A stretch of 64,000 bases of DNA, from the NCBI RefSeq assembly GCF_015277815.1, contig NZ_CP063813.1, positions 310,001 to 374,000 on the forward strand. The letters are read 5' to 3'. Made by a program: the position numbers and the translations under genes. This DNA comes from Microbacterium atlanticum (GTDB lineage Bacteria > Actinomycetota > Actinomycetes > Actinomycetales > Microbacteriaceae). The notes beneath the pieces are model-generated. The model was not told the origin of the DNA. It saw nothing but the letters and a program-made list of their open reading frames with translations, and ran no database searches. Of the stretch, positions 4,776-19,325 are shown in pieces (position 1 is the first letter of the stretch; each line of letters begins with the position of its first letter).

Positions 4776-5690
4776 ATGCACGTCGCGATCGTCCTGAATT
4801 GGCATGGACGAGCTGACACGCTGGAGTGTGTGCGATCCATCCTGGACGGGGATGCCGACACCGAGGTCCTCGTGGTCGACAACGGCTCGTTCGACGGGGT
4901 GGTGGAAACCCTGGCGGGGACACCACGCGTGAGTACGTTGCAGCTCCTGCGCAACCTCGGGTTCTCCGGAGGCATGAACCGCGGTATCGAGTGGGCCCTC
5001 GGACACGGCGCGGACACGATCACGATTCTCAACAACGACACCGTCGTGCCACCTGGCGCGCTGCCTCGCCTCGCCTCGCTCGCGGCCGACGCCATCGCGG
5101 TCAGTCCAACCGTCTTCTATAGGGACGACCCCGGCCGCATCTGGTTCGGCGGCGGCACCCTCGACATGCCCGACGGCTACCCGCATCACACCGCCCAGGC
5201 CGACTTGGCGTCCTGTGTGAACGGTGTTCGGGTGACCGACGTGCTCGCCGGATGCTGCATCACGGCGTCGGCTCCGACCTGGCGGGCTGTCGGGCTCTTC
5301 GACGAACGATTCTTCCTCAACTTCGAGGACTCGGAGTGGAGTTTGCGCGCGCGGTCTCGCGGCATCCGTCTGCTCGTCGCTTGCGACGTGCGTATCCTCC
5401 ACGCCGTATCGGCATCGTTCACCGGGGCCGCGGCGACGCTGGGAAGCTTCTACTTCCTCCGCAACGGGCTGCTCTTCTCAAAGCTCGCGGGTGCCGGCCC
5501 CGCGGCGCGGGTGCGCTTCCTGCGTCGTTTCGGTCTGGCGGGGCTGCGCCGGCGTTCGTGGCGTGGCCGAAGCCGTGGACTCGTCGTCGCGGGCTGGGCG
5601 GCCGCCTGCTACCTGACGCGACGATTCGGCGAAGCGCCTGGGGCGTTGCGTCGGCGCGTCACTCGCTGGGCCTCTCAGCCGACCGTGTAG
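4776..5690 (+). CDS. Family 2 glycosyltransferase (rhamnosyltransferase WbbL-like)
   Basis: A 304-residue cytoplasmic GT2 enzyme. It shows IVLNWHG at the N-terminus, VDNGS (34-38), LLRNLGFSGGMNRG, the metal site NND (86-88), and the late block DERFFLNFEDSEWSLRARSRG seen in dTDP-rhamnose-type transferases. The ATG at 4776 has GAGGTG 6 nt upstream. An in-frame GTG at 4767 lies within that ribosome site and is less likely. The last 16 bp overlap the end of the convergent ABC ATPase gene. Rhamnosyl transfer is a family-based guess. Confidence 0.85.
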   Translation: MHVAIVLNWHGRADTLECVRSILDGDADTEVLVVDNGSFDGVVETLAGTPRVSTLQLLRNLGFSGGMNRGIEWALGHGADTITILNNDTVVPPGALPRLASLAADAIAVSPTVFYRDDPGRIWFGGGTLDMPDGYPHHTAQADLASCVNGVRVTDVLAGCCITASAPTWRAVGLFDERFFLNFEDSEWSLRARSRGIRLLVACDVRILHAVSASFTGAAATLGSFYFLRNGLLFSKLAGAGPAARVRFLRRFGLAGLRRRSWRGRSRGLVVAGWAAACYLTRRFGEAPGALRRRVTRWASQPTV

Positions 5691-6883
5691 GTGAAGTCGC
5701 TGAGAACCGCGCCGCCGGCAGTCGCCTCGGGGTCGGAGAACTCGGGATAAGGCAGGTCGGGAAGGATCTCGAATGAGGCGGCCGCCTCCCAGGCGTCGAG
5801 GATGCCCGCACGGCACACGAACACGTCGACGGAGTAGCGCCCCGGCCGCAGCCACAGACCGTCAATAGAAAGGCTCAGGCGCTGAGGGCGCGCCGGATCC
5901 AGCCAGACATCATGCACCCTGGAGTCGCATTGTGCGAGGACGACGCCGTTCGCATCGTTCACGTGCGCCGAGACGTAGTACGGGCGGCCGCCCGCCGAAC
6001 CCGCGGCGACCTCGATCTGCACCATCTTGGTATCGGCCACGTGGAAAGTACCGTCGGTGGTGACCGCCGCCGCCCGCACTTCCCCCGATCCCGGGCGGCG
6101 GGATGCCTCGACCTGAGCGGTCGCGAAGTCATCGAACGACTCGCGATAACGCGCCATGACGTCCGCAACGGCGCCCTGCGCTACAAGGCGCCCGGACTGC
6201 AGGAACATCGCCGAGGTGCACAGGTTGAGCACCGTCTGCATCTGGTGGCTCACGTACAGCACCGTCCGGCCGTCCCTCGCGGCATCCCTCAGCTTCGCCA
6301 GCGACTTCCGTTGGAACTCGGCGTCGCCCACGGCGAGCACCTCGTCGATCGCCAAGATCTCGGTGTCGAGGTGCGCGGCGACGGCGAACGCGAGGCGCAC
6401 GTACATGCCCGACGAGTAGCGCTTGACGGGCGTGTCGAGGAACTTCTCCACACCTGCGAAGTCCACGATCTGGTCGAAGCGGCGGATGATCTCGCGGCGC
6501 CGCATGCCCAGCAGTGTGCCGTTGAGGAAGATGTTCTCGCGACCGGTCAATTCGGGGTGAAAGCCCGTTCCCACCTCGAGCAGACTTCCGACGCGGCCGC
6601 GCAGCTCGATGCGGCCCGTGGTGGGAGCCGTGATCCGGGTCAGCAGCTTGAGGAGCGTGGACTTGCCGGCCCCGTTGCGACCGATGATGCCGACCGCCTC
6701 GCCCGCGGGAACCTCGAAATCCAGTGCGTGAAGGGCGTCGAACAGCTCCACGTCCGTGCGGCGGAAGGGCCGTTTCGCGAACTCGACGATGGCCTCGCTG
6801 GCACGGTTCGGGCGGCTGCGGTGGCTGATCCGATACGTCTTGGAGACGTTGGAGGCGATGATCGCGGCGGTGCCGTGCGTCAC
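5675..6883 (-). CDS. Polysaccharide/teichoic acid export ABC transporter ATP-binding protein (Wzt/TagH-like)
   Basis: A 402-residue ATPase that powers export of a lipid-linked polysaccharide. Walker A is GRNGAGKS (68-75), the signature is YSSGM (156-160), Walker B is ILAIDE (176-181), and the switch region contains SHQ. Residues from about 260 form a beta-rich C-terminal domain like the substrate-reading domain of Wzt. The partner permease is the gene at 9941-10759, not an immediate neighbour: three genes of another kind lie between them, although the pair is usually contiguous. The start is the ATG at 6883, and no better one is seen. Confidence 0.9.
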   Translation of the reverse strand: MTHGTAAIIASNVSKTYRISHRSRPNRASEAIVEFAKRPFRRTDVELFDALHALDFEVPAGEAVGIIGRNGAGKSTLLKLLTRITAPTTGRIELRGRVGSLLEVGTGFHPELTGRENIFLNGTLLGMRRREIIRRFDQIVDFAGVEKFLDTPVKRYSSGMYVRLAFAVAAHLDTEILAIDEVLAVGDAEFQRKSLAKLRDAARDGRTVLYVSHQMQTVLNLCTSAMFLQSGRLVAQGAVADVMARYRESFDDFATAQVEASRRPGSGEVRAAAVTTDGTFHVADTKMVQIEVAAGSAGGRPYYVSAHVNDANGVVLAQCDSRVHDVWLDPARPQRLSLSIDGLWLRPGRYSVDVFVCRAGILDAWEAAASFEILPDLPYPEFSDPEATAGGAVLSDFTYTVG

Positions 6884-7090: not shown

Positions 7091-7738
7091 ATGAGCGAAT
7101 TCAACGAGCAGGAAAAGTCGGGCGGCGTCAGCCGACGGACTGTCACCAAGGCGATGGCGTGGGCGGTTCCCGCGATCGCGATCGCAGCGCCGGTACCGGC
7201 GTTCGCCGGGGCGAGTCAGGGCACGATCCAGCTCACGGGTCAGAACTGCAAGCTGCCGGGCAACTCTGTCGGCGCCTTCTCCGACGGCGCGGTGTTCCTC
7301 ATGACGATCACGAATACCACGGCTCAGCCGGTCACCATCTCGATCACCAGCGTCGTGCGTGGCAGCGCGACGCAGAGCGGCGCCCAGGTCAACGTCGTCA
7401 AGGTCGGCCCCGGAAACCAGACCGGGTGTTGCACCCTTCTCAGCACGACCTTCACGGTCGGCGCGAACTCGTCGGGCACCTATGCCCTGGTCACGAGCGA
7501 CTGGGGCAACAGCGCCAGCAACGACGTGTCGGTGAACTACACCCTGCAGGTGGGTGCGAATCCTGCCGTGCCGCAGCCGCCTGCCACAGGCACCGCAGGC
7601 GGCCTTCCGCCTATGGGATTCAACAACACGTCATGCGGCCAGAACACCGGAAGCTGCACGTTCAGCGAGGCCCGTCAGAGGTGCATCCTCGACGCCTTCC
7701 CCGAGTTCACCTGCACGCCGGCGTGCACCAACTCGTGA
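7091..7738 (+). CDS. Tat-exported, cysteine-rich protein of unknown function
   Basis: A 215-residue protein with a twin-arginine signal: S14-R15-R16-T-V-T-K, a hydrophobic stretch, then a likely cut after AFA (39). The mature part is Thr/Ser/Asn/Val rich, suggesting a beta-sandwich. It has eight Cys, among them a CC pair, two in TSCGQNTGSC, one in RC, and two in the tail FTCTPACTNS, which ends in Ser. I recognise no family. The ATG at 7091 is chosen because it places the Tat motif normally. An earlier in-frame start at 7064 lacks that advantage. It is followed after 62 bp by the MauE-thioredoxin fusion, a plausible disulfide-forming partner. Confidence 0.75.
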   Translation: MSEFNEQEKSGGVSRRTVTKAMAWAVPAIAIAAPVPAFAGASQGTIQLTGQNCKLPGNSVGAFSDGAVFLMTITNTTAQPVTISITSVVRGSATQSGAQVNVVKVGPGNQTGCCTLLSTTFTVGANSSGTYALVTSDWGNSASNDVSVNYTLQVGANPAVPQPPATGTAGGLPPMGFNNTSCGQNTGSCTFSEARQRCILDAFPEFTCTPACTNS

Positions 7739-7800
7739 AGTCGTGTCCGTCCGTTTTTCACTTCCGGCTGCGCGGGTGCGCGTCGCCGTAGCATCGACGC

Positions 7801-8832
7801 ATGCCTGACGCACTCCTGGCGGCGTTCCCCCTTGTGCTGGCAGCCGTACTCATCGCCAGCGGTGTCAGCAAGCTGAGAAACCCCGAAGACCTGCAGGGCT
7901 GGGCCGACCTGGGCGTGCCCCGTGGCCTTCGGCGCGAATGGCTCCTCCGGTTCCATCCTGCGGGGGAGATCGTCCTCGGTGTCGCGCTGGCTGTGCTGGG
8001 CGGCATCCTCGGACTGCTCGCCGCGCTCGCGGCGGTGGGCCTCATGAGCGCCTACACCTGGCTGGTGGTGCGGGCCGTCTCGCGTGACGAGGACACCAGC
8101 TGCGCGTGCTTCGGCGTCCGGAAGAAGGTGACGCGCGTCACCGTGGTGCGCAATGCGTGGCTCACGGCGATCGCCGTCGCCGCCGCGTTCAGCATCTGGA
8201 CCGCTCCGACTCTGGGCGGCGTTCTGGTCGCGGGCTGGCCTGTGGTGCCCGCCCTGGCGCTGGCTGCCGTCACAACGGCGCTGGTGATGTGGCCTGACGA
8301 TGCGCCGCAGTTCGCACGCGACAGCGGACCCATGGCCGATGCGGCTCAGAGTCCTCGGTCCGAGAGTGCCGACGAAAGCGACGAACTGGATTACATCCGC
8401 ACGCGGACACCCGCTGTCTCGGTGACGCTCGCCGACGGGACGGCTACCGATCTGCGGGCGCTCACCGAACTGCGGCCAGTCCTTCTCCTCCTGGTCTCGC
8501 CGACATGCGGATGGTGCGAACCGATCGTCGCCCAGCGTCAGGCGTGGCGCGAGCTGCTTCCGGAGGTCGACGTGCGGCTGCTGCTCACCGATCCGCCCGA
8601 GTCGAGCCCGTGGACCGAGACCGATGAACCGCAGTCGCTCCATGACACCGGCGGTCGTGTCGCAGCGTCGCTCGCCGACTTCATCCCGTCGCCGAGTGCG
8701 GTGCTGCTCGGCGCCGACGGTCTGCTTGCCGGTGGGCCGGTGGTCGGCGACGCCATCAAGTCCTTCATCGACGACATCTACGAGAGCTTGCACGGCGTTC
8801 GGCCGCCGGTTCCAGCTTCGGGTAAGGCTTAA
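7801..8832 (+). CDS. MauE/DoxX-family membrane redox protein fused to a thioredoxin-like domain
   Basis: A 343-residue fusion. Residues 1-165 have four membrane segments and the MauE-type Cys pair CACF (C101, C103). Residues 200-343 resemble a thioredoxin or TlpA fold with CGWC (C236, C239) and the cis-Pro region IPSPSAVLLG. MauE proteins help form disulfides in methylamine dehydrogenase, and the fused domain would pass or accept electrons outside the membrane. The neighbouring Cys-rich Tat protein is the obvious candidate substrate, which is inference. ATG at 7801 gives a normal membrane N-terminus. The last 4 bp overlap the convergent kinase-like gene. Confidence 0.85.
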   Translation: MPDALLAAFPLVLAAVLIASGVSKLRNPEDLQGWADLGVPRGLRREWLLRFHPAGEIVLGVALAVLGGILGLLAALAAVGLMSAYTWLVVRAVSRDEDTSCACFGVRKKVTRVTVVRNAWLTAIAVAAAFSIWTAPTLGGVLVAGWPVVPALALAAVTTALVMWPDDAPQFARDSGPMADAAQSPRSESADESDELDYIRTRTPAVSVTLADGTATDLRALTELRPVLLLLVSPTCGWCEPIVAQRQAWRELLPEVDVRLLLTDPPESSPWTETDEPQSLHDTGGRVAASLADFIPSPSAVLLGADGLLAGGPVVGDAIKSFIDDIYESLHGVRPPVPASGKA

Positions 8833-9923
8833 GCGCGAATCATCAGCCCCGCGTCGACGAGCTCTGCGAGCGATGCCCGGACGAGGCTCGCCGCGTCCAC
8901 GCCGTCGGGGTGTCCGTGAACGCTGATGGCCATGCCGACGAGCGCGGTCACGGGCGTCGGCTGCGCCGTCGCGTGCCAGAGCGAGGGTGCGATCCCATCG
9001 AGAACGACGACGCGGGTGGATGCCTCGTGGTCTCGCACGAGGAGCGCCAGGCGACCGTCTTCCAGCGCGAGCCAGTCCAGCGCCTCGACACGACGATAGG
9101 AGGAAGCAGCGAGCGGACGGGAAACGACGGCGACAGCAGCCGGCTCTACCGGGCCGGCCACGGGCCCGGGCGGTGTGGGCTCCCGCGCCCCCAGCTCTTG
9201 CACAACCGCCACGAGGCTCTCGGCGTCGCTGTAGACGACACGCTGCACGCCGCCGACCGACTCCACGTGCGAGGCGATCACATGCAGTGGCGCGGGCAGC
9301 GTCCCGAGAAAGCTGCTCTGCTCGGCGAGGGCTGTGATGCCCTCCGCGAGGTCGACTCGCTCGGAACGCGGCGTCGTCGCGGAGTCATCCCGCTCCAGCA
9401 GCACAAGGGCGGCCAGCCGCAACGGCATGGTCGGAAGCGGCAGAAGGTTCAGCTCGGTCGGACTCCGCTGGACCTTCAGGACCTGGTCATCCTCCATCAG
9501 CGACAGCGGCTTCCGGTACGGATGCACCGTGCCGTCCGCAGCGATGCCGACGGATTCATCGGAAACATAGCCGAAGCGGGTCCCGAGAATGCGCGAAGCG
9601 GTCGTCTTCCCACGTCCGGACGGGCCGACGAGCGCGACGACCCTGCCGTCTGCGGTCGCGAGTCCGGCGGCGTGCAGCATGAGAAGTTCCCCAGCTCGTG
9701 CTTCCAGTGCCGCGAGCGTCACCTCCGTCGACAGCGCCGAGAGCATCGACCGCGTCGGAAGAGAGCCATGCGCTGGGACAGTCGCGGCCGTGTCGACAGC
9801 GGCGCGCTCCACAACGCCGTCGCGCCAGGCGGCCTGCGTCGCCGCCCACGCTTCGTCGGACAGGGCTGAGCCGTCGATGCGCACCACCGTACCGAGGGCA
9901 TCGACGGACAGGGTGCGGGTCAC
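8829..9923 (-). CDS. HPrK-like kinase fused to a PqqD-like (RRE-type) domain
   Basis: A 364-residue protein. The segment LLMLHAAG...VVALVG followed by Walker A GPSGRGKT (100-107) and SDE (121-123) is the pattern of HPr-kinase-related proteins found with modified peptides, such as the kinase of paeninodin-type lasso peptides. Residues about 276-362 (from YRRVEALDWLALEDG to LVDAGLMIR) match the winged-helix layout of PqqD, the usual peptide-recognition element of RiPP enzymes. No radical-SAM or cyclase gene lies nearby. The substrate is unknown; the Tat protein two genes away is a candidate. It is convergent with the MauE fusion and runs toward it from the permease side. Confidence 0.8.
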   Translation of the reverse strand: MTRTLSVDALGTVVRIDGSALSDEAWAATQAAWRDGVVERAAVDTAATVPAHGSLPTRSMLSALSTEVTLAALEARAGELLMLHAAGLATADGRVVALVGPSGRGKTTASRILGTRFGYVSDESVGIAADGTVHPYRKPLSLMEDDQVLKVQRSPTELNLLPLPTMPLRLAALVLLERDDSATTPRSERVDLAEGITALAEQSSFLGTLPAPLHVIASHVESVGGVQRVVYSDAESLVAVVQELGAREPTPPGPVAGPVEPAAVAVVSRPLAASSYRRVEALDWLALEDGRLALLVRDHEASTRVVVLDGIAPSLWHATAQPTPVTALVGMAISVHGHPDGVDAASLVRASLAELVDAGLMIRA

Positions 9924-9940: not shown

Positions 9941-10759
9941 TCAGATGAGGTCGGCGAACACCCGTTCGTATCGCTGGAAGATCGCCGCGCCGACGAAGAG
10001 CACCAGAACGGCCACGACGACCGATCCGACCAGTTGCCAGACGGGTGGTGCGGTCGTTCCGAGCGTGGACCAGCGGAAGCCGTCGAGCATCCAGGCGAGG
10101 GGATTGGCGAGGAACAGTGGCTGGAGGGCCGGCGGGATCGCATCCGTCGCGTATGCGACCGGCGTCGCGAACAACGCCACCTGCAGGATCCACGGCAGCA
10201 CGTACTGGACGTCCCGGTACTTGACCATCCACGCGGACGCCGCGAGCCCTGCACCGACGGCCGTCGCAGTGATGATCAGGACCCAGATCGGAACGAGCAG
10301 CACCGGCCAGCCAGGGTTCACCGTGAATGCGAACAGTAGGACGACGCCGAAACCGAAACCCACTGCGAAGTCCAGCAGCGTCGGGCCTGCCGCGGACAAC
10401 GGAACCAGCATGCGGGGGAAGAACACTTTCGAGACCAGCGCCTGATTGGCCACCATCGACGACGCGGAACGGGAGAGCGTGCTGGCGAAAAGGGTCCACG
10501 CGAGCATGCTCATGTACGAGAACAAGAAGTACGGAACGCCGCCGGTGGGCAGCTGCGCGACAGCGCCGAACACGATCGCGAAGATGCCGGCAGCTGCCAG
10601 CGGCTGCAACAGCACCCACGCGACTCCGATGAAAGTCTGCCGGTAGCGGAGCACGACGTCACGCTGAGCGAAACGCAGGGCGACCTCACGCGCATCCCAC
10701 AACTCCCGCCACGGCGGCAGCGCCAACCGGCCGGGAGGCGTGATGACGGTCGGGCGCAC
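9941..10759 (-). CDS. Polysaccharide export ABC transporter permease (Wzm/TagG-like)
   Basis: A 272-residue ABC-2 type membrane protein with six predicted membrane segments. The front, LWDAREVALRFAQRDVVLRYRQT, is the conserved cytoplasmic helix of Wzm/TagG permeases, and the middle block VSKVFFPRMLVPLSA is also typical. It should pair with the Wzt-like ATPase at 5675-6883. I chose the GTG at 10759 because it puts the conserved helix about 20 residues in. The longer open frame to 10882 overlaps the upstream glycosyltransferase gene and is unlike the family. The ribosome site is weak, so the start is uncertain. Confidence 0.85.
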   Translation of the reverse strand: MRPTVITPPGRLALPPWRELWDAREVALRFAQRDVVLRYRQTFIGVAWVLLQPLAAAGIFAIVFGAVAQLPTGGVPYFLFSYMSMLAWTLFASTLSRSASSMVANQALVSKVFFPRMLVPLSAAGPTLLDFAVGFGFGVVLLFAFTVNPGWPVLLVPIWVLIITATAVGAGLAASAWMVKYRDVQYVLPWILQVALFATPVAYATDAIPPALQPLFLANPLAWMLDGFRWSTLGTTAPPVWQLVGSVVVAVLVLFVGAAIFQRYERVFADLI

Positions 10760-14303: not shown

Positions 14304-15383
14304 TCATCTCTGCCGATGGGGGCCCGCGGAGGCCGCACCGCGGCTCGCACGTGGCCGTTTCGGACGTCCCGTCACCCAACCGAGCAGCCACTCGACCGGC
14401 CCCGTGCCCACGAAGCGCCACCAGGCCCAACCGACCAGGACCACGAGCGGCACCGTGAGCACCCACCCCAAGAGGATGGTGTCAACGGGGAGGCCGAGGC
14501 TGCCCGCCCATACCGCGATGATCCCGACGTGCAGGAGGTAGAGGCTGAGGGCGACCTCGCCACAGGCGCGGATCGGCACGAAAAGACCATCGATCACCCG
14601 GCGTGGACGGGGGCGCGTGACTGTCGCGAGCCAGACCACTGCCACGTACGTCGCGAAGACCAGACCCACGTCATGAAGCGTGTCGGGATAACTGCCCGAA
14701 ACTTCGGGCCAGCCGAGCATCCGCTCCCCGAGCGGGCGCACGAGGTAGGTGATCGGAGCGGCGACCAGCATCCACTGCAGCCATCGGTCCCGACGGAAGC
14801 CGTGACGCAGGAGGAGCGCCCCGAAGAGAAAGAAAGGGAGCAGATTCGTGAGGCGGTACGACGTGCCGAGCGCCGCCCACGTCGCAAGCTGCTGTGTCGC
14901 CCAGTGCCACTCGGGGCTCGTGGACGCGAGCCCGCGAGCCCAGGCGTTCAGCGGTGCGCTCACGATGACGGCGAAGATCGTGGCCATGACGAGCCAGCCG
15001 GTTCGCAACTTCAGCAACGGCACGCCGACGATCAGCAGGAGTCCGAGGTAGGCCAGGATGATCACGACCCACGAGCCCCATGTAGCCATCCACAGCCCCA
15101 GGACGATCAAGGCGAGCCCGCGGAGCCATTGCTGACCGAGCGTCGGCCACCAGCGCGGCGCCCGATCCCAGACGATCTGCGCGGACATCCCCATCACCAG
15201 TGCGAACAGAGGTGAGGCCAGGTCGTTCACGTTGGCGACGACGAAGACCATCGACGCGCTCGCATCCGGGAAGAAGAGCATGGCGTGGGCCAGCAGCATC
15301 GCGATGATCGCGACGCCGCGAAGGACGTCCGGCACGACCAAGCGCCCCGCAGGCGCAGGAGGAGCGGTGATCACGGACCCCAC
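14304..15383 (-). CDS. Membrane acyltransferase-like protein (HGSNAT/DUF1624-DUF418-like)
   Basis: A 359-residue protein with about ten membrane segments. It opens with RLVVPDVLRGVAIIAMLLAH, the hallmark of heparan-glucosaminide-acetyltransferase-like and DUF418 proteins. It closes with LSLYLLHVGI and WAWWRFVGTGPVEWLL, as in DUF418. In a polysaccharide locus it may move acyl groups across the membrane onto the glycan. The family has few characterised members, so this is inference. It lies 40 bp after the GT4-GT2 fusion gene and 116 bp before the GT4 genes on the same strand. Confidence 0.7.
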   Translation of the reverse strand: MGSVITAPPAPAGRLVVPDVLRGVAIIAMLLAHAMLFFPDASASMVFVVANVNDLASPLFALVMGMSAQIVWDRAPRWWPTLGQQWLRGLALIVLGLWMATWGSWVVIILAYLGLLLIVGVPLLKLRTGWLVMATIFAVIVSAPLNAWARGLASTSPEWHWATQQLATWAALGTSYRLTNLLPFFLFGALLLRHGFRRDRWLQWMLVAAPITYLVRPLGERMLGWPEVSGSYPDTLHDVGLVFATYVAVVWLATVTRPRPRRVIDGLFVPIRACGEVALSLYLLHVGIIAVWAGSLGLPVDTILLGWVLTVPLVVLVGWAWWRFVGTGPVEWLLGWVTGRPKRPRASRGAASAGPHRQR

Positions 15384-17526: not shown

Positions 17527-18693
17527 GTGGACGACCGAGGCTTGTCCGCGCGCATCCTCTTCCTGAGCCATTCGACCGTCGCCGGCGGTGCGGAACTCGC
17601 TCTCGTGAGGATCCTCAACGCCGGACCGCGCTGGAACGCGGTCGTGCTGCTCCCGCGGTCGCCGGCCGGACGCGGGGCATTCCGCGCCGTGACGAGCGTG
17701 CCGGTCATGTCCACCGGCGTCGGCCAGCGCTTCGGCGCGAGTACCGCCGGTGTGGTCCCGCAGATCGTCAACGCGGCGCGTCTCGTCATCCAGGCAGCGG
17801 CGACGCGCGTCCACCCCGCGTTCCGGTCGGCAGACATCGCGGTGGCCAACTCGACACGCGCGTCCGCGTACGGTGCGCTCGCGGCGATCACCTCCCGCAC
17901 GCCGTTCGTCGTGCATGTGCGCGACCTTGCGGAGGCCGAGGCGCTCGGCGCCGCGGGAGCAGCGATCATGCGCCGCCTGGTCCTCCCGCGAGCCGATGGA
18001 GTGATCGCCGACACCCAGCGCGCGCTCAGTGCAGCGCAGCCATACATCCGGTCCGGCACGTCGAGGGCTGTGATCCCCAGCGCATCGGCACTCGTCCGAC
18101 GCGAGGCGCGTGCACGTCGGAGCGGCCCCACCGTGGTGGGCATGCTCGCGCGCATCGATCCTTGGAAAGGGCAGGAGCTGCTGCTGGATGCGTTCGCGCG
18201 CGCGTTCCCCGACGGGGACGAGCGCCTGGAGTTCGCCGGCGGAGCGCCGTTCGGGCACGACGGCTTCGCCGCGCACCTGCGCCATCGCGCGGAGGAGCTG
18301 GGTGTCGGGCCTCGTGTCACCCTCCTCGGTCACGTCGATGACGTCGATGCGGTCCTCCACCGCTGGGACATCGCCGTGCAGGCTTCGCTGCGCCCCGAGC
18401 CCTTGGGGCAGAACGTCCTCCAGTACCTCGCTGCGGGGTGCGCGACGGTCGTCGCCGACGAAGGCGGCCCCGTCGAGTGGGTGCAGAACGGGGTGAACGG
18501 GCGGCGGTTCGCACCTCGGGATGCCGAGGCGCTGGCGAGCGAGCTGCGGGAGCTGGCGGCCGACCCCGCGCTGCGCCACGCCCTCGGCGTGGCCGCCATC
18601 CACACCCCGGGCTTGCGCACCGACGCAGAGATCGCCGCGGAGCACCGGCGCTTCTACGCCGACGTCCTATCGCAGACGCGGAGTCGACGGTGA
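17527..18693 (+). CDS. Family 4 glycosyltransferase
   Basis: A 388-residue GT-B enzyme: RILFLSHSTVAGGAELALVRIL at the N-terminus, then a Pro/Ala-rich acceptor domain, VGMLARIDPWKGQELLLDAF, and the donor site RPEPLGQNVLQYLAAGCATVVAD. GTG at 17527 follows GGGAGG by about 4 nt; an ATG at 17497 is a possible alternative start. The open frame that runs back to 16213 is antisense to the fusion gene and was not used. It is divergent from that fusion, with 87 bp for promoters. Its stop overlaps the phosphatase start by 4 bp. Confidence 0.85.
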   Translation: MDDRGLSARILFLSHSTVAGGAELALVRILNAGPRWNAVVLLPRSPAGRGAFRAVTSVPVMSTGVGQRFGASTAGVVPQIVNAARLVIQAAATRVHPAFRSADIAVANSTRASAYGALAAITSRTPFVVHVRDLAEAEALGAAGAAIMRRLVLPRADGVIADTQRALSAAQPYIRSGTSRAVIPSASALVRREARARRSGPTVVGMLARIDPWKGQELLLDAFARAFPDGDERLEFAGGAPFGHDGFAAHLRHRAEELGVGPRVTLLGHVDDVDAVLHRWDIAVQASLRPEPLGQNVLQYLAAGCATVVADEGGPVEWVQNGVNGRRFAPRDAEALASELRELAADPALRHALGVAAIHTPGLRTDAEIAAEHRRFYADVLSQTRSRR

Positions 18694-19325
18694 GCGAGTC
18701 CTTCACGGTGCTCACCGTGTGCACCGGCAACCTCCACCGGTCCGCGCTCGCCGCCGAGCTCCTCGATACGTGGGCGGGCTGGTACCTGCCGTCCGACCTG
18801 CGAGCGGCCGTGATCGTCTCCAGCGCGGGCACGCACGCGCCCGTGGGCGAGCCGATGGGACCCCGGACGCGCCGCTTCGCCTCGAGCCTCGGTGCGGCAG
18901 AGCGCGGCCATCGCGCCCGCCTGCTCACCGATCCACTGGTCGCCGAGGCGGATCTCATCCTGGCGGCATCTCGCGCTCATCATGACGAGATCGTCCGGCG
19001 GGTGCCGCGAGCCATGCGGCGAACGTTCACCATCCGGGAGGCCGGCCGCCTCGCAACGCTGATCGGCGCTGGGCCTCCGGCATCCGTTGCCGACCTCATC
19101 GGCGTCGTCGCTTCGTGGGCCGAGCACCGCGCCGACGTCGCTGCGACCACTCTGGAAGACGAGGACATCATCGATCCGCAGGGCAAGGACGCCTCGGCGA
19201 CGGAGGAGATGGTCCGCCAAGAGGTGCCCGCCCTGGTGGCGGTGGCGACCACGCTGTGGGGCATGCCGCGGGGGGATGCCGAGGCCTACGTCCGTGCCGC
19301 CGCCGATCCCGCATCCCTGCCCTGA
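18690..19325 (+). CDS. Low-molecular-weight protein-tyrosine-phosphatase-like protein (Wzb-like)
   Basis: A 211-residue protein with the phosphatase P-loop CTGNLHRS (C11 to R17-S18), directly after the first strand, and a possible DP acid loop at IIDP (near 161). Such enzymes (Wzb, PtpA) remove phosphate from tyrosine kinases that control polysaccharide chain length. No such kinase is in the window. The product is longer than the usual 150 residues. GTG at 18690 overlaps the stop of the preceding GT4 gene (GTGA), so the two are coupled. Confidence 0.8.
   Translation: MSESFTVLTVCTGNLHRSALAAELLDTWAGWYLPSDLRAAVIVSSAGTHAPVGEPMGPRTRRFASSLGAAERGHRARLLTDPLVAEADLILAASRAHHDEIVRRVPRAMRRTFTIREAGRLATLIGAGPPASVADLIGVVASWAEHRADVAATTLEDEDIIDPQGKDASATEEMVRQEVPALVAVATTLWGMPRGDAEAYVRAAADPASLP

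Follow-up and report, generated by a model that had tools for sequence, protein, structure and literature searches.

Among the closest known relatives of the system reported here are lasso peptide clusters. According to two published accounts, PsmK phosphorylates a C-terminal Ser residue and the addition of hexoses to that Ser requires PsmN, although it is left undecided whether PsmN is itself the sugar transferase (PMC9266682), and PqqD-type B1 proteins bind leaders (PMC7533575). Here we analyzed a 64,000-nucleotide stretch of Microbacterium atlanticum DNA (the window; positions 310001-374000 of NZ_CP063813.1, the single contig of a 3.71 Mb genome), in which three genes at 7091-9923 encode an HPrK-like kinase with a PqqD-like domain, a MauE-thioredoxin-like protein (MauE-Trx), and a Cys-rich protein with a twin-arginine translocation (Tat) signal. 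Open reading frames and coding-potential gene calls confirmed the trio and its position between wzt and wzm, as a preliminary description of this DNA had reported. The description took exactly these three genes as a module. This view is too narrow, since a stand-alone PqqD protein and an NTP_transf_5-type nucleotidyltransferase encoded outside the window belong to it as well; the functional set consists of the kinase, PqqD, the nucleotidyltransferase and the Tat-leader proteins, plus MauE-Trx for the Cys-bearing ones. In open-licence PubMed Central, we found neither a published description of this gene combination nor a functional account of an HPrK-PqqD-nucleotidyltransferase set outside lasso peptides. 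At this locus, such a set is tied to definite candidate substrates with one diagnostic leader.

Results

The components are listed here with positions in the window, unless contig positions are indicated.

7091..7738, + strand: Tat-signal Cys-rich protein, KAMAW leader subtype (215 amino acids, 8 Cys)
7130..7213, + strand: its leader/Tat signal, SRRTVTKAMAWAVPAIAIAAPVPAFAGA, the conserved common element
7211..7612, + strand: a single Ig-like beta-sandwich domain, with a Cys-rich tail after it (model mean pLDDT 78; generic beta-sandwich matches only)
7801..8832, + strand: MauE-Trx membrane thiol oxidoreductase (343 amino acids; assigned by PF07291, E = 1e-20, and co-occurrence)
8101..8109, + strand: CxC motif of the MauE half (C101, C103), invariant in 47/47
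8506..8517, + strand: CGWC motif of the Trx-like half (C236, C239), both Cys invariant in 47/47
8829..9923, − strand: kinase of the HPrK/PEPCK fold, PqqD domain at its C terminus (364 amino acids)
9600..9626, − strand: kinase Walker A motif, GPSGRGKTT (K106 invariant)
8832..9110, − strand: PqqD-like domain of the kinase (RiPP recognition element, RRE; RiPP, ribosomally synthesized and post-translationally modified peptide), residues 272-364
Contig 302035-302838: NTP_transf_5-type nucleotidyltransferase (23.9 bits, below the 31.2 cut-off; DxD motif present)
Contig 302835-303122: stand-alone PqqD, 95 amino acids, about 7 kb upstream of the window (PF05402, 32.9 bits; cut-off, 23.4)

Co-occurrence of the components

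We searched a genus sample of 149 Microbacterium genomes, with the kinase called at E ≤1e-15, and a family sample of 349 genomes, seven of them from the same genus. In the genus sample, the kinase was found in 55 genomes and the Tat-signal pattern in 29, of which 28 were kinase-positive (p = 5.6e-14); the reversed pattern was found in 0/149. Likewise, 20 of the 21 genomes with MauE-Trx were kinase-positive (p = 2.5e-9), and 20/20 genomes with both kinase and MauE-Trx carried the Tat pattern, so that the three families whose association had been proposed occur together in 20/149 genomes. NTP_transf_5, over its cut-off in 34 genomes, was present in 50, and 45 of these were kinase-positive (p = 1.2e-22), including genomes where the kinase sits elsewhere. 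PF05402 was present in 42 genomes, 37 of them kinase-positive, with kinase-borne PqqD domains counted too. The kinase-negative exceptions were G030 (77% complete) for MauE-Trx, G023 (83% complete) for the Tat pattern, and G010, G028, G030, G094 and G097 for NTP_transf_5. Two of the last group, G010 (C1:1656903-1666973) and G094 (C1:215609-236022), carry a strong NTP_transf_5 match (111 and 132 bits, respectively) 10-20 kb from a PqqD match; these pairs are possibly ordinary RiPP or lasso clusters.

In the family sample, the kinase was present in 40/349 genomes and the Tat pattern in 15, of which 13 were kinase-positive (p = 7.4e-12); with the seven own-genus genomes removed, the count was 11/13 (p = 3.6e-10). 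Within one further genus (g12), pattern and kinase agreed in 7/7 genomes, both being present in the same four. Collectively, in the samples searched, the components are found together much more often than chance would give, though the genomes are related. In the protein database, the contigs of 16 out of the 39 nearest kinase homologues are equal in length to contigs bearing a Tat protein homologue among those compared, and are thus probably the same contigs. The M. atlanticum genome holds one each of motif-bearing Tat gene, family kinase, NTP_transf_5, PqqD match and MauE-Trx, and the function is therefore testable in a single genome.

The common leader of the Tat proteins

The Tat proteins have a common N-terminal block, SRRT(V/I)(V/T)K(GA/AM)AW(S/A)VP..A.AxPxAxAS; in the window protein, an SRRTVTK motif, a hydrophobic region and an A-x-A site are visible. 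When pairs with mature parts less than 60% identical were compared, leader identity was 77-79% in the KGAAW (51 proteins) and KAMAW (20 proteins) groups, as against 28-32% for the mature parts and 26% for shuffled sequences. A common leader thus precedes mature domains of nearly random similarity, on proteins that are 107-765 amino acids long among those listed. Judged from sequence, this has the look of a common recognition element on otherwise dissimilar proteins; it is not proof of one, and the conservation may serve export or cleavage. Tat-motif genes were found both beside the kinase and far away from it. Expansions were also seen, with eight Tat-motif sites across the chromosome of G121 and five kinase matches in G093.

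The kinase and its PqqD domains

The AlphaFold model of the kinase (pLDDT 93.1) matches PEPCK and HPrK/P structures, which by modeling places its fold in the HPrK/PEPCK superfamily, and residues H84, K106, D122 and E123 are invariant in 40 aligned homologues. A Pfam search with the window kinase's own sequence alone did not detect the PqqD domain. However, PF05402 was matched by 9 of 13 aligned C-terminal domains (own copy included), and the domain profile matched solved PqqD-family chains in the PDB (E = 3.8e-4) and, by hhalign, the second PqqD domain that relatives carry (E = 2.5e-7). The four PDB matches were a PqqD family protein, TbiB1 (a lasso protein), a lasso PqqD chaperone and an unrelated chain (E = 0.58). 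In the model, residues 272-364 form strands followed by three helices, an order that we take to be the PqqD topology and that bears out the earlier expectation for this segment. By model and profile, the domain is thus of the PqqD type. The window kinase has one such domain, and 10 of the 40 aligned homologues have a second.

The stand-alone PqqD and nucleotidyltransferase genes overlap by 4 bp, and a Wzy_C gene and then wzc come next. Across all fetched regions, a stand-alone PqqD was found in 28/113 regions with a single-PqqD kinase and in 0/30 with a double-PqqD kinase (p = 0.0012). The exclusivity held when identical kinases were removed (22/89 versus 0/26, p = 0.0033) and where a nucleotidyltransferase was in view (20/38 versus 0/19, p = 5.6e-5), and it links the stand-alone PqqD with the kinase. 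At L144:10001-11421, a single-PqqD kinase is directly followed by a stand-alone PqqD and occurs with a leader of type DRRKLLKIGAWAAP, as in double-PqqD relatives; this arrangement resembles a point of recent fusion or fission.

MauE-Trx and Cys-bearing Tat proteins

The fusion proposed earlier held for the MauE half, which scored 74.8 bits against PF07291 (cut-off, 27), and for the Trx-like half at the level of its CxxC motif alone, as neither Pfam nor the PDB yielded a notable match for this half. All four Cys residues of the CxC and CxxC motifs were invariant in the 47 distinct homologues from the regions. The TKAMAW leader subtype, that of the window protein, was found in 13/149 genomes, all MauE-Trx-positive, at a distance from MauE-Trx of 0.7 kb in M. 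atlanticum and 7.1-10.6 kb in the other 12. Of the KAMAW proteins, 20/20 contain at least two Cys and 19/20 at least four.

Among dereplicated Tat proteins, at least two mature Cys residues were present in 19/22 whose fetched region includes MauE-Trx, as against 9/28 of the others (p = 1.3e-4; 40/49 versus 14/40 before dereplication). Four of these nine Cys-bearing proteins without MauE-Trx are themselves KAMAW proteins: for L230 and L233, MauE-Trx lies in the next stretch, L198 is on a short contig, and for L207 none was in view. It is therefore likely, and our best-supported functional statement, that MauE-Trx serves the disulfides of Cys-bearing exported Tat proteins; its action may be either oxidation or isomerization.

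Gene layout and neighborhood

The remaining genes that bear on the argument are as follows.

5675..6883, − strand: Wzt ATP-binding cassette (ABC) ATPase, in divergent orientation to the Tat gene; Wzt_C match below threshold
9941..10759, − strand: Wzm ABC-2 polysaccharide permease, on the kinase strand, with the kinase gene 17 bp downstream
14304..15335, − strand: membrane acyltransferase (HGSNAT/Acyl_transf_3 type), its cluster lying ≤6 kb from the kinase in 11 regions
18690..19325, + strand: low-molecular-weight phosphatase, present in 35/110 kinase regions

The trio is not one operon, because the kinase gene follows wzm on the minus strand and is convergent with the MauE-Trx gene, their stop codons overlapping. 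From the spacing, the kinase is probably part of the wzm transcription unit, and the Tat gene, divergent from wzt, probably forms a unit of its own with MauE-Trx, 62 bp downstream. The split exporter, which the preliminary description treated as a trait of the module, did not generalize, as relatives of the wzt/wzm pair were found in just 2/148 kinase-bearing regions. G137 (L230, 17489-19998) shows an intermediate arrangement: a KAMAW Tat gene alone lies between wzt and wzm (83% and 77% identical, respectively), and the kinase and MauE-Trx genes occupy other places in the locus.

Neighbors were counted in 110 distinct-kinase regions out of 141, the window among them, after setting aside 5 without a kinase call by the gene finder and 26 identical copies. 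Wzc was the most frequent, at 72, followed by the nucleotidyltransferase (56), a signal peptidase I variant (51), a strict-motif Tat gene (47), an AraC-type protein and a DUF4012 protein (42 each) and MauE-Trx (31). The Tat gene, MauE-Trx, nucleotidyltransferase, Wzc, signal peptidase I variant and AraC-type protein were found in 0/20 off-locus stretches, which were taken from 13 of the same genomes. Close copies of the signal peptidase I variant and of the AraC-type protein are absent from the M. atlanticum genome. Cys-rich signal peptidase I is unusual, and the two inspected copies of the variant (e.g., L047:7571-8272) are rich in Cys. A second kinase context, beside argS, was seen in 15 regions of the genus sample, with few Tat genes (within 8 kb for 4/16 kinase entries). 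Of 159 named loci found, 80 were kept; most are from Microbacterium, the other genera being Tessaracoccus, Agromyces, Herbiconiux, Compostimonas, Cryobacterium, Pseudoclavibacter, Paenarthrobacter and Arthrobacter. A region filed under Stenotrophomonas maltophilia (L152, JACEFY010000021.1) resembles the kinase/Tat/DUF4012/Wzc region of Microbacterium and is probably contamination of that assembly.

Discussion

The lasso precedents, the presence of the same three families and the leader proteins that track them lead us to propose, with confidence somewhat short of even, a leader-guided modification system for Tat-exported surface proteins within a polysaccharide locus. PqqD, both stand-alone and as the kinase domain, would recognize the N-terminal leader, which is also the Tat signal. 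The HPrK-like kinase would then phosphorylate the Tat protein in the cytoplasm, and the nucleotidyltransferase would put a nucleotidyl or sugar group on that phosphate, a scheme likened to the action of PadeK/PsmK and PsmN on lasso precursors. The folded protein would exit via Tat, a signal peptidase would cut off the leader, MauE-Trx would form or shuffle the disulfides of Cys-bearing members at the membrane, and the product may be linked to the polysaccharide. Tat transports folded proteins, and the order of modification, export and cleavage fits this property. In M. atlanticum, a general signal peptidase would have to serve, as the genome has no close copy of the variant. The logic already outlined for the trio, of PqqD recognition, perhaps phosphorylation, export and disulfide formation, thus appears to be the best current reading of the sequences. 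Its fullest form is more speculative: the Tat signal would double as a RiPP-style leader for PqqD/RRE-directed attachment of a phospho-linked nucleotide or sugar to whole folded proteins before export, possibly tied to the polysaccharide, with MauE-Trx acting on the disulfide clients.

Several observations weigh against leader-guided modification. The Tat motif as written is absent from 27/55 kinase-positive genomes and a strict-motif Tat gene from 63/110 distinct kinase regions, and G233 and G393 hold diverged motif variants and no kinase, a search at E 0.001 yielding short P-loop matches only. The leaders of the remaining 27 proteins, outside the KGAAW and KAMAW groups, are 60% identical. 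In 67/89 single-PqqD kinase regions, the stretch examined contained no stand-alone PqqD, which may be absent or, as in M. atlanticum, located at a greater distance. Of the 22 Tat proteins that have MauE-Trx in their region, three are without Cys, no common C-terminal Ser was visible in the Tat proteins listed, and the kinase has Asp-Glu at the site where lasso kinases show Asp-Asp (positions equated by eye). The co-occurrence p values overstate independence because the genomes are related. Finally, a mirror-tree analysis of 56 regions gave a kinase-leader rho of 0.13 (Mantel p = 0.054), and in the Wzc-bearing subset the kinase-leader value was 0.19 versus 0.21 for Wzc-leader, and thus there is no support for direct kinase-leader coevolution.

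The lack of a special kinase-leader link in the mirror-tree is what would be expected if the kinase, PqqD and nucleotidyltransferase acted on another partner in the locus, candidates being Wzc, the DUF4012 protein, a lipid-linked sugar and some small peptide that lacks annotation. In that case, the Tat proteins would be surface products of the same locus, sharing a signal for reasons of export or signal peptidase cleavage. The neighbor counts speak for this explanation too, with Wzc the commonest and the signal peptidase I variant and DUF4012 also frequent. However, even motif genes located away from the locus go with the kinase at the level of genomes, and M. atlanticum lacks close copies of the signal peptidase variant and AraC-type protein yet keeps the kinase, PqqD, nucleotidyltransferase and one Tat-motif gene. 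We consider this the likeliest of the alternatives, though less likely than leader-guided modification. HPrK proper is a regulatory enzyme, and the low-molecular-weight phosphatase and Wzc occur in the same regions as the kinase, which would suit a module in which these three control polysaccharide chain length or export by phosphorylation, with PqqD as a mere adaptor. Such a module leaves both the nucleotidyltransferase pairing (45/50) and the leader unexplained and seems improbable. Lineage history alone, an accessory island inherited as one without functional coupling, would suit phylogenetically structured samples and statistics that ignore kinship, but it is very improbable given that the pattern repeats outside the genus, within g12 and for unlinked genes, and that the counted parts were missing from all 20 random regions.

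Comparison with known systems

The HPr-rel-A system (TIGR04352, HprK_rel_A; TIGR04353, PqqD_rel_X), compared here by family names and profile scores, is alike in combining an HPrK-like kinase with a small PqqD, and the best NCBIfam match of the window kinase and the stand-alone PqqD of one relative fall there. Membership was rejected, as both curated cut-offs were tried and neither was reached: the kinase scored 24.5 bits against TIGR04352 (cut-off, 200), and against TIGR04353 (cut-off, 35 bits) the M. atlanticum stand-alone PqqD gave no match at E 0.1 and the best relative tried scored 24.1 bits. The present system further differs in having PqqD fused to the kinase and Tat-leader proteins and MauE-Trx attached. 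MauE-Trx resembles MauE/DoxX-type membrane oxidoreductases in its PF07291 match and invariant CxC and CxxC motifs. MauE itself belongs to methylamine dehydrogenase maturation, whereas MauE-Trx is tied to Tat-signal Cys proteins. The flanking genes match the ABC ATPase and ABC-2 permease families of Wzm-Wzt exporters, with the difference that three genes lie between them here.

The paeninodin (PadeK) and pseudomycoidin (PsmK/PsmN) lasso clusters are alike in the HPrK-type kinase, the PqqD-type recognition protein and the nucleotidyltransferase (PMC9266682, PMC7533575). A Pfam scan of 10 locus proteins assigned 8 to sugar-related or acyl/hexapeptide families and left 2 unmatched, no search being aimed at lasso B2/C. 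By analogy, the present system probably works like the lasso kinase/nucleotidyltransferase pair. It differs in that lasso precursors are short, whereas the candidate substrates here are full-length Tat-signal proteins, and in the Asp-Glu in place of Asp-Asp. If the proposed reading is true, leader-directed (RRE) modification would reach beyond small peptides to surface proteins that Tat exports in folded form, and would be linked to polysaccharide loci, a new kind of leader-directed modification for full-size exported proteins.

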